From a virus, in the IMG/VR virus record IMGVR_UViG_3300031651_000008, positions 1 to 36,950 of that record: a stretch of 36,950 bases of DNA; one strand, written 5' to 3'. The notes under the pieces are model-generated. The model searched no databases. It saw only the letters and a list, made by a program, of their open reading frames with translations, and had not been told where the DNA came from. Position 1 is the first letter of the stretch. Each line of letters opens with the position of its first letter. Below, in pieces: positions 12,038-15,612 of this stretch. A program made the translations under genes and the position numbers.

Positions 12038-12448
12038 GTGAAGAAGATACGGGTAGATAAACTTGACAGGCTATTCTCTGAATATATCAGGCGAAGGGCT
12101 ATTCAAAGAGTAGGTGGTTGTGAGCGTTGCTTGGCTCAGAAGCACGACACAACAAGGGAAGATGGTTCTACCCGTCCAGCATATATGGAACTTCAATGCT
12201 CTCATTTCTGGGGGAGGGCGAAGCTCAATGTCAGGTGGGATGAAGATAACGCAGCGGGAATTTGCGCAGGCTGTCATTTATATCTGACCGCTAATCCAGA
12301 AGAACATAGCTGGTGGTTTGCAGAGCATTTAAGGCGGGAGAAGTTTGAGATGCTTCTTGCAAGAGCAAATGAAAAGGGCAGTCCAGACCGCAAGGCTATT
12401 GAGCTGTATCTAAAGCAGAAGCTAGAGGAGATTAAAGGGATTGAATGA
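12038..12448 (+). CDS. ninG: NinG/Rap-like recombination nuclease
   Basis: 136 residues, GTG start. LDRLFSEYIRRRA, a CERC knuckle near residue 28, then LQCSHFWGRAKLNVRWDEDN and AGICAGCHLYL make the zinc-bound HNH-like core of NinG (Rap) family proteins, which cut branched DNA during phage recombination. The C-terminal helix (LARANEKGSPDRKAIELYLK) also fits. It overlaps the methyltransferase start by 4 bases and works plausibly with ERF. Confidence 0.82.
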   Translation: MKKIRVDKLDRLFSEYIRRRAIQRVGGCERCLAQKHDTTREDGSTRPAYMELQCSHFWGRAKLNVRWDEDNAAGICAGCHLYLTANPEEHSWWFAEHLRREKFEMLLARANEKGSPDRKAIELYLKQKLEEIKGIE

Positions 12449-13356
12449 GATTCATAGATATGTTCTGCGGAATAGGGGGTTTTAGACTTGGGCTTGAACA
12501 AGCGGGTTCTCAAATACAGCAGGGCAAACAAGAAGAACAAAGAGGGCAAGATAGAGATAACCTATCACGAAGGGGAAATAGTGGGTTCTCTGAAAGGCCC
12601 AACGGGCAACCAGCGGAATTTCATTGTGTCTGGGCCAATGACAACGATAAATACGCCTGTCAAATCTACCGAAGGCACTTTGGGGAAGTCACAGAGGCAG
12701 ACATCAAAACAGTTGACGCTAGTGCCATACCAGACCACGAACTCCTCTGTGCGGGATTTCCTTGCCAATCTTTCTCTAAGGCTGGGAAGCGACGAGGCTT
12801 CGAAGATACTAGAGGGACACTATTCTTTGATATATGCCGAGTCCTACGGGCTAAAAGACCTCGCTTGCTTTTCCTTGAGAATGTTAGGGGGCTCCTCTCC
12901 GCTGACGAAGGTAGAACCTTTCTCATTATTCTACAATCGTTGGATGAACTGGGGTATGACTGTCAATGGCAGGTGCTTAACAGCAAGGACTACGGCGTGC
13001 CACAGAACCGAGAGCGGGTGTTCATTATCGGACATCTTAGAGGACAACCCAGACCAAAAGTATTTCCTCTCGGAGAAGCAGGTCAACTCAATGAAACAAT
13101 GGAACTCACAGGAGAACCCACTACCGGCTGTTTACGGGCGAGAGGAGAAGAAGATATGCACTCTGGTTTGAATCTAGTGAGCGAAATGGAAGGAATAAGG
13201 CGCTTAACTCCCATAGAGTGTGAACGCTTACAGGGATTCCCCGACAACTGGACGGCTGGTATAAGCGATGCGCAAAGGTATAAATGCCTGGGCAACGCCG
13301 TGAGTGTTCCAGTCATAGAGGCAATCGGAAGGCAGTTAATGGAGTTTAATGGCTGA
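12445..13356 (+). CDS. dcm: C5-cytosine DNA methyltransferase (Dcm family)
   Basis: 303 residues with all key motifs: I FCGIGGFRLG (7-16), IV GFPCQSFS with the catalytic Cys (about 104-111), VI ENVRG (about 143-147), VIII QNRERV (about 187), IX TPIECERLQGFPDNW and X GNAVSVPV. It would transfer a methyl group to cytosine C5 and protect phage DNA. Odd features: a 37-residue polar insertion (residues 22-58) between motifs I and II, a short target-recognition region of about 50 residues, and a long ORF in the +2 frame inside it. No restriction partner is present. Confidence 0.95.
   Translation: MRFIDMFCGIGGFRLGLEQAGSQIQQGKQEEQRGQDRDNLSRRGNSGFSERPNGQPAEFHCVWANDNDKYACQIYRRHFGEVTEADIKTVDASAIPDHELLCAGFPCQSFSKAGKRRGFEDTRGTLFFDICRVLRAKRPRLLFLENVRGLLSADEGRTFLIILQSLDELGYDCQWQVLNSKDYGVPQNRERVFIIGHLRGQPRPKVFPLGEAGQLNETMELTGEPTTGCLRARGEEDMHSGLNLVSEMEGIRRLTPIECERLQGFPDNWTAGISDAQRYKCLGNAVSVPVIEAIGRQLMEFNG
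12581..13171 (+). CDS. Nested out-of-frame ORF inside the cytosine methyltransferase
   Basis: The +2 frame is open from 12488 to 13171 (227 codons). A GTG at 12581 has AAGGGG five bases upstream and would give 196 residues. The product is not random-looking: SSVRDFLANLSLRL, WMNWGMTVNGRCLTAR, then CSLSDILEDNPDQKYFLSEK near the end. From memory, phrases like SLSDILE..P.KYFLS occur in a family of phage proteins encoded near Dcm genes. It may be a true overlapping gene or a shadow reading conserved because motif VIII is conserved. Confidence 0.4.
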   Translation: MGSLKGPTGNQRNFIVSGPMTTINTPVKSTEGTLGKSQRQTSKQLTLVPYQTTNSSVRDFLANLSLRLGSDEASKILEGHYSLIYAESYGLKDLACFSLRMLGGSSPLTKVEPFSLFYNRWMNWGMTVNGRCLTARTTACHRTESGCSLSDILEDNPDQKYFLSEKQVNSMKQWNSQENPLPAVYGREEKKICTLV

Positions 13357-13999: not shown

Positions 14000-14215
14000 A
14001 TGATAATAATACCCCCTAACGAGTTATTTTCTACGAGCGATGAATGGCACGCCTTTGTTATAGGCTTCTTTGAGGTAATCTGCCCGTTGCCGCCGAGGGT
14101 AAAAATAGCACCGGCAAAGCCTGAGATACTCAAAGAATATCATTACTATATGTTTGGCAGAGGGTGTGGTATAGGAGTTTGGCTGATACTACTGGCGATA
14201 TTATTATGGGGATAG
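14000..14215 (+). CDS. Small C-tail-anchored membrane protein
   Basis: 71 residues starting at the base after the previous stop. A soluble front (PPNELFSTSDEWHAFVIGFF), then one hydrophobic segment at the C-terminus (residues 53-71, IGVWLILLAILLWG). Function unknown. Confidence 0.55.
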   Translation: MIIIPPNELFSTSDEWHAFVIGFFEVICPLPPRVKIAPAKPEILKEYHYYMFGRGCGIGVWLILLAILLWG

Positions 14216-15612
14216 CAGAGCCTTATTATCAAGATAGCCACATCAGAATCTATAACAAGGATTGTCGCTCAATGCTCGAGCTCGAGGCTGAAAGCATCCA
14301 GTGTGTCATAACATCGCCGCCTTATTGGGGACTTCGCAAATACTCCGGTAATCAGGACTTAATCTGGGGGGATAATCATTGTGAGCATCGGTGGGGACAA
14401 GAACTTTTAGTTGATAAGCAAGGCAATTGGGATACTTGGAAAGCAAACGATGGTAAAGCGGAAGATAGGTTTACTAGAAAAAGGGCTGAAGGTGGTAGCT
14501 CACAAGGCTCATTCTGTTCCCTCTGCGGAGCGTGGAAAGGTGCTTTCGGTTTAGAGCCTACACCGGAGATGTATGTCCAGCACACGATAGAGATATTACG
14601 GGAGATAAAAAGGGTGTTGAGGAAGGACGGTGTTGTGTTCTGGAATATCGGGGACTCTTATGCTACTAGCCACGCCGAAGTAGGCACGATTGATAGAGAA
14701 ACTGGCTGGACAAGTACCACCGCTAAAATTGACATGAAGGATAGAGGCAGAACATCAACAAAGGGGCATCCTATCCTCAAACCCAAAGACCTCTGTTTAA
14801 TCCCCTTCAGGATAGCAATAGCAGCACAAGAGGACGGCTGGTGGGTTAGGTCGGTTATTATTTGGAGCAAAAATAATCCTATGCCCGAGAGCGTAACTGA
14901 TAGACCGACTGAATCACATGAATATATTTTAATGCTAACAAAGAGCAAGAATTACTATTGGGATGCTGATGCGGTGAGAGAGCCGATATCTGAAAGTTAC
15001 GCCGCTGATAAGAGACCGCATGGAGTTTTAAGGCAACGCTTTTATCCCAACTCCAAATATGTTAAGGCGGGTATGGTGGAGCACGACAGTTCCCCATTCC
15101 CTAGTGGTGAGAGAGCAGATGGCCGCAATCTCCGTTCAGTCTGGGAGTTCCCAACACAGCCTTATCCTGAAGCTCACTTTGCGGTATTCCCTGAGAAATT
15201 ACCCGAGCTATGTATTAAGGCAGCCACGCCAGAGGTAGGATGCTGTTCAAAGTGTGGTAAGCCCTGGGTGAGGATAGTTGAAAAGAAAAGGGCAGAACCA
15301 CAACGGCAAAACTGGCGATTCCAAAAGGATACTGAAGGGCGGAGCGATTATTCTGAAGCAGGCGGGTGGTATGATGCCCAAAATATCACTCTCGGCTGGC
15401 AACCCACCTGTAACTGCAAAGACGCCACAAAGACGCCACCTATACCTGCAAAGACGCCGTCCGTAGTCCTGGACCCGTTTATGGGAACGGGGACTACTTT
15501 ATGGGTAGCAAAGAAGCTCAGCAGGAAAGCGGTAGGATATGACACTTCAGAGGAGTATTGCCGGCTGGCATTAGAAAGAAACCGACAGTATGCAATGGAG
15601 TTTAGCCAATAG
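14206..15612 (+). CDS. N4-cytosine/N6-adenine DNA methyltransferase with zinc-ribbon insertions
   Basis: 468 residues from ATG 14206, overlapping the previous gene by 10 bases. Catalytic motif IV TSPPYWGLRKY is near residue 36, and SAM motif I DPFMGTGTTLW near residue 423, the order of beta-class amino-methyltransferases. Between them: VFWNIGDSY, SVIIWSKNNPMPESVTDRP and EYILMLTKSKNYYWD, which fit the family. Two Cys clusters (CEH with CSLCG near residues 65-110; CCSKCG with CNC near residues 346-405) are likely zinc ribbons in the DNA-recognition part. Target sequence unknown. Confidence 0.9.
   Translation: MGIAEPYYQDSHIRIYNKDCRSMLELEAESIQCVITSPPYWGLRKYSGNQDLIWGDNHCEHRWGQELLVDKQGNWDTWKANDGKAEDRFTRKRAEGGSSQGSFCSLCGAWKGAFGLEPTPEMYVQHTIEILREIKRVLRKDGVVFWNIGDSYATSHAEVGTIDRETGWTSTTAKIDMKDRGRTSTKGHPILKPKDLCLIPFRIAIAAQEDGWWVRSVIIWSKNNPMPESVTDRPTESHEYILMLTKSKNYYWDADAVREPISESYAADKRPHGVLRQRFYPNSKYVKAGMVEHDSSPFPSGERADGRNLRSVWEFPTQPYPEAHFAVFPEKLPELCIKAATPEVGCCSKCGKPWVRIVEKKRAEPQRQNWRFQKDTEGRSDYSEAGGWYDAQNITLGWQPTCNCKDATKTPPIPAKTPSVVLDPFMGTGTTLWVAKKLSRKAVGYDTSEEYCRLALERNRQYAMEFSQ

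Follow-up and report, generated by a model that had tools for sequence, protein, structure and literature searches.

Our analyses support the conclusion that the C5 cytosine methyltransferase gene of this phage carries, overprinted on its first two thirds in the +1 frame, a second, conserved protein-coding gene. The window, by which we mean the whole 36,950-nucleotide stretch of IMG/VR record IMGVR_UViG_3300031651_000008 that was analyzed, contains the main-frame (frame 0) methyltransferase gene (Dcm) at 12445..13356 on the + strand. Its 303 aa product matches PF00145 (9.9e-91) and phrog_116 (3.9e-98) and contains motifs I, IV (GFPCQSFS), VI (ENVRG), VIII (QNRERVF), IX (RLTPIECERLQGFPDNW) and X (CLGNAVSVPVI), in agreement with an earlier, sequence-only reading of this DNA. 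Directly upstream is a NinG/Rap-like endonuclease gene (12038..12448, + strand; phrog_5034, 8.1e-12), the end of which overlaps the Dcm start by ATGA. The sequence-only reading had also proposed that the methyltransferase gene is overprinted, and this proposal is now backed by the length of the nested frame, which is beyond chance, by its conservation, by purifying selection acting on it, and by start sites that recur across the family.

The +1 frame, which begins one base later than the Dcm frame, is open from 12476 to 13168 and ends with a stop codon at 13169-13171, giving a stop-free run of 231 codons plus stop (12476..13171, + strand) whose product matches phrog_16143 (3.7e-26). The 227-aa ORF at 12488-13171 that was originally noticed is present as described and is the TTG-started version of this run. 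All +1 stops of the window Dcm fall outside the open run, at codons 1, 4 and 10 and then from codon 242 onward. When the gene's synonymous codons were shuffled 10,000 times, the longest run obtained was 189 codons (mean 83), and when codons were drawn 10,000 times according to the usage in nine further genes of the phage it was 198 (mean 78); the observed run exceeds them all.

Searching with the nested product by tblastn yielded matches in 245 phage records, and every hit whose frame was checked against its Dcm lay inside the Dcm in the +1 frame, except in BV739P1, where the Dcm frame itself holds the motif. We analyzed two sets of relatives, both picked by similarity, such that the proportions given here are not the share among all phage Dcms, and the related loci within them are not independent of one another. 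Set A comprised 84 loci with window-like Dcms, from 80 viral contigs chosen by similarity to the main-frame protein, and set B comprised 81 proteobacterial-type loci, for which the query was the nested product of Roseobacter phage CRP-822 (the divergence of profile A1 made it unsuitable for locus searches). A nested match in the +1 frame was present at 84 of 84 set A loci, and the longest +1 run was significantly long (p<=0.05) in all 84, with a median of 204 codons (78 in synonymous shuffles); the other alternative frame behaved as expected by chance (42 codons vs 41 expected). In set B the +1 frame was open in 81/81 (median 159 vs 88 codons; p<=0.05 in 67), bringing the relatives that keep the nested frame, close and more distant ones together, to 165 of 165 examined; the stop codons in relatives that the sequence-only reading had named as a sign against a gene were thus not what we found. 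Among control Dcm genes (n=38; 37 bacterial ones plus the Dcm of phage KP15), p<=0.05 was reached in only 3, with a median of 69 codons vs 78 expected, and among neighboring phage genes in 15 of 199 (median 44 vs 43.6 expected). Because both kinds of control behave as chance predicts, the test of open-frame length is calibrated. The KP15-type Dcm lacks the nested ORF. Carriers of the nested gene include phages of Firmicutes, Proteobacteria, Actinobacteria and cyanobacteria, a methanogen virus, and phages P1 and P7. In six contigs (L051, L052, L075, L077, L082 and L091) the Dcm main frame is itself divided over two frames, reflecting either a real frameshift or sequencing error.

Main-frame synonymous sites within the overlap are more conserved than codon usage predicts. 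In a sliding profile, the excess sets in near 12661-12685, is greatest (2.5-fold) at 13021-13065 and has fallen to 1.03 at 13093, which delimits a constrained core of the nested gene at 12685..13095 (+ strand); the ratio is 1.1-2.5 inside the core and 0.97-1.09 from 13093 on. At positions where two Dcms share an amino acid, the fraction with identical codons is 0.51-0.71 in the overlap and 0.35-0.44 in the C-terminal part, the codon-usage expectation being ~0.37. Third-position variability is therefore reduced across the overlap, not normal as would be anticipated for a frame without function. Given both main-frame proteins, +1 similarity to the window exceeded that of synonymous shuffles in 71 of 71 comparisons (mean z 4.3). 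We also estimated nested-frame dN/dS by an overlap-aware substitution count. The set B values were 0.17 (dSN/dSS) and 0.13 (dNN/dNS), compared with 1.72 and 2.26 downstream of the overlap; in set A, dNN/dNS was 0.58 vs 1.58 downstream, and dSN/dSS was saturated. The window's own clade points in the same direction (dSN/dSS 0.85 vs 1.64; dNN/dNS 0.49 vs 0.69), the signal among these nearest relatives being weak because of saturation.

The position at which constraint begins favors translation starting around 12638-12713 rather than at 12488. Across the family, a start codon with a Shine-Dalgarno (SD) site precedes the conserved DFLA motif in the nested frame at 49 of 81 loci, but in the other two frames at only 10 and 4, and these start sites cluster just before the constrained stretch, at recurring alignment columns (ATG at -20/-22, TTG at -14). 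The window offers three candidates on the + strand, all weak: an ATG at 12638..12640 (177 aa) without a clear SD site; a TTG at 12680..12682 (163 aa) with GAAGG upstream and a 4-nt spacer, which shares its column (-25) with the ATG and SD-like site of loci L054 and L081; and a TTG at 12713..12715 (152 aa), the column of which (-14) holds GGAG-N11-TTG in many relatives, the SD site in the window being weaker and more distant. The start at 12581 named in the sequence-only reading, which would give a 196-residue product, has a good SD site, yet it lies upstream of the constrained region and is not favored.

The best-conserved portion of the nested product is a C-terminal stretch, CSLSDILE..V/P..KYFLS (CSLSDILEDNPDQKYFLSEKQVNSMKQ in the window; 13019..13099, + strand), which overlaps main-frame motif VIII and the segment that follows it. 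This stretch resembles the frame-0 segment after motif VIII of canonical Dcms. When a DILE..KYFLS profile was run against 207 Dcm main-frame proteins, it scored at least 10 bits in frame 0 in 7 of 38 control Dcms but in only 1 of 165 Dcms with a nested ORF, and the frame-0 segment (e.g. GDILEKSVDEKYTLS) nearly always lies ~30 residues past motif VIII; IME-SA4 has such a segment and BV739P1 a frame-0 match. A short motif of this kind suggests a link between the nested product and canonical Dcms. A profile of the 27-residue C-terminal motif gave no C5 methyltransferase match in the PDB. According to the sequence-only reading, SLSDILE...KYFLSE recurs in phage proteins encoded near Dcm genes: the recurrence holds, but the motif lies within Dcm genes rather than near them, read in +1, or in frame 0 where the Dcm is a canonical one. 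A Dcm with a ~0.5 kb insert after motif VIII (L069, 2501-4053) reads DILE..KYFLS in frame 0 and its C-terminal Dcm motifs in another frame. For the N-terminal part of the nested product, the only relatives are other +1 ORFs of this kind, most of it having no methyltransferase counterpart, and neither Pfam nor NCBIfam gave a consistent family for the product. Predicted folds are of low confidence overall (mean pLDDT 59.8 and 49.8), the confident parts being two C-terminal helices in the set B model and one in that of the window; in the version starting at 12581, AF2 pLDDT is 84-96 in blocks at residues 151-180. The set B structure model returned no fold match.

A third group of loci (n=80) was collected with the pattern WPTPTASDW, a family that we had taken to be a stand-alone phage protein. 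Nearly all 80 overlie a Dcm in another frame, and the remainder are either truncated at contig ends or, in L273 and L275, fused to Dcm in one frame, so this family gives no independent support for the nested product. Nor is the 54-bit match between the WPTP profile and the nested product independent: the nested profile gives up to 48 bits with +1-frame fragments of ordinary bacterial Dcms, showing that similarity to a profile can be no more than a shadow; the caution about motif conservation voiced in the sequence-only reading was sound in this respect. That reading had further counted a lack of standalone homologues against a gene, and here the result goes that way: we found no free-standing homologue of the nested product, as the complete relatives found all overlie a Dcm apart from the one-frame fusions. 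The WPTP-type +1 ORF is longer, with LNPTWVEWLMGFPIGWTDL at its end, and a profile of that segment matches motif IX in set A Dcms. In frame 0 of the WPTP-type genes (n=47), motifs IV and VI are present in 47/47 and motif X in 43/47, but motif IX in only 2/47; the +1 frame is significantly long in 44/47, and its motif IX-like segment has no frame-0 counterpart in 45/47. The frame-0 ORF of an Embleya plasmid terminates past motif VIII, and motifs IX and X are instead encoded in its +1 ORF. Some members of the family thus have, in the +1 ORF, methyltransferase parts missing from frame 0, and this makes translation of their +1 ORF very likely. The target-recognition region of WPTP-type loci (L196-L275) often contains repeated modules, several copies per gene, which read VAD..S.RLEG in the main frame and, in +1, WPTPTARDWK.

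M.EcoHK31I is a C5 methyltransferase composed of two polypeptides (YGGCCR). Its small polypeptide is reportedly encoded within the gene for the large one, in a different frame, and the window resembles this arrangement, with a large C5 methyltransferase, a small second polypeptide and an ORF that also lies inside the large gene. In M.EcoHK31I, motifs I-VIII and X are in the large polypeptide and motif IX alone is in the small one, while M.AquI is split into alpha and beta within the variable region after motif VIII (as stated in the background of a paper on fragment complementation of C5 methyltransferases, PMC3404938). WPTP-type relatives share the M.EcoHK31I division, with motifs I-VIII and X in frame 0 and motif IX absent from it but present in the other polypeptide. 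In the window, by contrast, frame 0 keeps both IX (RLTPIECERLQGFPDNW) and X, and the nested product contains DILE..KYFLS rather than motif IX; we therefore do not classify it with the EcoHK31I-type enzymes. The present loci also differ in being mostly phage genes and not restriction-modification genes. The Embleya plasmid locus is similar to M.AquI but has a long overlap, whereas the large protein of the window, instead of ending before motifs IX-X, is complete through both, and its second ORF is wholly internal. The names of two PHROG families reflect the overlain gene. The family phrog_16143 (“DNA methyltransferase”) matches 63 of 63 nested products aligned (best 2.4e-86) and phrog_1008 (also “DNA methyltransferase”) matches WPTP-type +1 ORFs at ~1e-30, yet the products here are +1 ORFs without catalytic motifs. 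Streptococcus phages MM1 1998 (orf14) and P0092 (P0092_45) have nested ORFs alike in position, frame and sequence family, annotated only as “C5 methyltransferase beta subunit” in the former and as a second “DNA methyltransferase” in the latter. In the literature searched, we found no published report of this overlap in phages.

We read the nested protein as a probable helper subunit of the methyltransferase, and the explanation that we favor as a whole, and consider fairly likely, is an overprinted gene whose translated product acts in trans as a beta-like partner subunit. Translation from an internal start of its own (at about 12638-12713) would yield a protein of 150-177 aa, and since both proteins would come from one mRNA, they would be made together. 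The nested protein would then bind the methyltransferase in trans, its DILE..KYFLS segment taking the place of the one found, in canonical Dcms, in the main frame after motif VIII and ahead of the target recognition domain. The argument from missing motifs does not apply directly to the window, as its main frame has IX and X, and by analogy with M.EcoHK31I the window enzyme may still work with a beta-like subunit. A broader reading, which we put forward tentatively as quite possible, is that an ancient second gene, overprinted in +1, is very widespread among the C5 methyltransferases of phages; it would have taken over motif IX, or even X, in some lineages and would be, in others such as the window with its complete enzyme, a new kind of subunit tuning activity or target choice.

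A real nested protein could instead have arisen by overprinting and act independently of methylation, for example in anti-restriction, anti-defense or regulation, being kept where it is only by sharing the Dcm transcript. The window methyltransferase, having all its motifs, could work by itself, the greater part of the nested N-terminus resembles neither methyltransferases nor other known families, and the prediction is mostly of low confidence, as for a disordered stretch. We nevertheless regard such a role as unlikely, though it is the strongest competitor, because the +1 ORF was never found apart from a Dcm, motifs IX and X of the methyltransferase occur in related +1 ORFs, and the nested C-terminus resembles a Dcm segment.

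Programmed ribosomal frameshifting out of the Dcm frame, which would produce a Dcm with an alternative tail and no separate protein, would fit the position of the +1 DILE..KYFLS segment after motif VIII, where canonical Dcms have their frame-0 version, and the fusion of motifs I-VIII with a +1-type tail in one frame in L273 and L275. We consider it improbable, since constraint on the nested frame starts ~330 bases upstream of that point, SD-bearing start codons cluster where constraint begins, and seven set A loci have a +1 stop within the aligned core, several of their open frames beginning just before an ATG at -20/-22. The fusions themselves (L273, 3028-3814; L275, 1702-2491) join Dcm motifs I-VIII to a WPTP-type tail whose counterpart in other phages is read in +1.

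Synonymous constraint alone does not name its cause, and an overlapping nucleic-acid element, such as an RNA structure or a regulatory site, could produce it. This account is very improbable, as the constraint is frame-specific, with stop-free runs in the other alternative frame no longer than expected, and +1-silent changes are tolerated far more often than +1-nonsilent ones. Least probable of all is a shadow ORF, the alternative raised in the sequence-only reading, in which conserved methyltransferase motifs such as motif VIII merely make the frame look open and conserved: the nested profile does score as much as 48 bits against +1 segments of ordinary bacterial Dcms, but the synonymous-shuffle tests with their calibrated controls, the sharp end of synonymous constraint at 13093 and a nested-frame dN/dS of 0.13-0.17 lead us to reject it.

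To our knowledge, long same-strand overprinting has rarely been documented in dsDNA phages, and we know of no common gene caller that reports a fully nested gene; here, a nested gene of ~150-200 codons is kept across phages of several phyla. Since the overlain enzyme is known and the laboratory phages P1 and P7 are among the carriers, the question can be tested directly. If the favored explanation is true, many “orphan” cytosine methyltransferases of phages would be two-protein enzymes, cloning the annotated gene alone would give an enzyme that fails or changes specificity, and two PHROG families (phrog_16143 and phrog_1008) would be misnamed.

Several methyltransferase genes encountered during this work have other unusual features. 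The dmt gene of Escherichia phage P1 (OP279344; L181, 973-4014) has an intein-like insert in motif IV (CFTAGHMVLCKNGYKP...VHNC) that its P7 homologue (L182) lacks. In Mycobacterium phage Constella (L185, 1321-1938), an HNH endonuclease ORF is annotated within the methyltransferase CDS, suggesting an inserted homing element. Finally, the window encodes a second phage DNA methyltransferase 0.8 kb downstream of the Dcm gene (14164-15612, 482 aa; phrog_67, 8.1e-69), the two conserved parts of which are separated by a long stretch.
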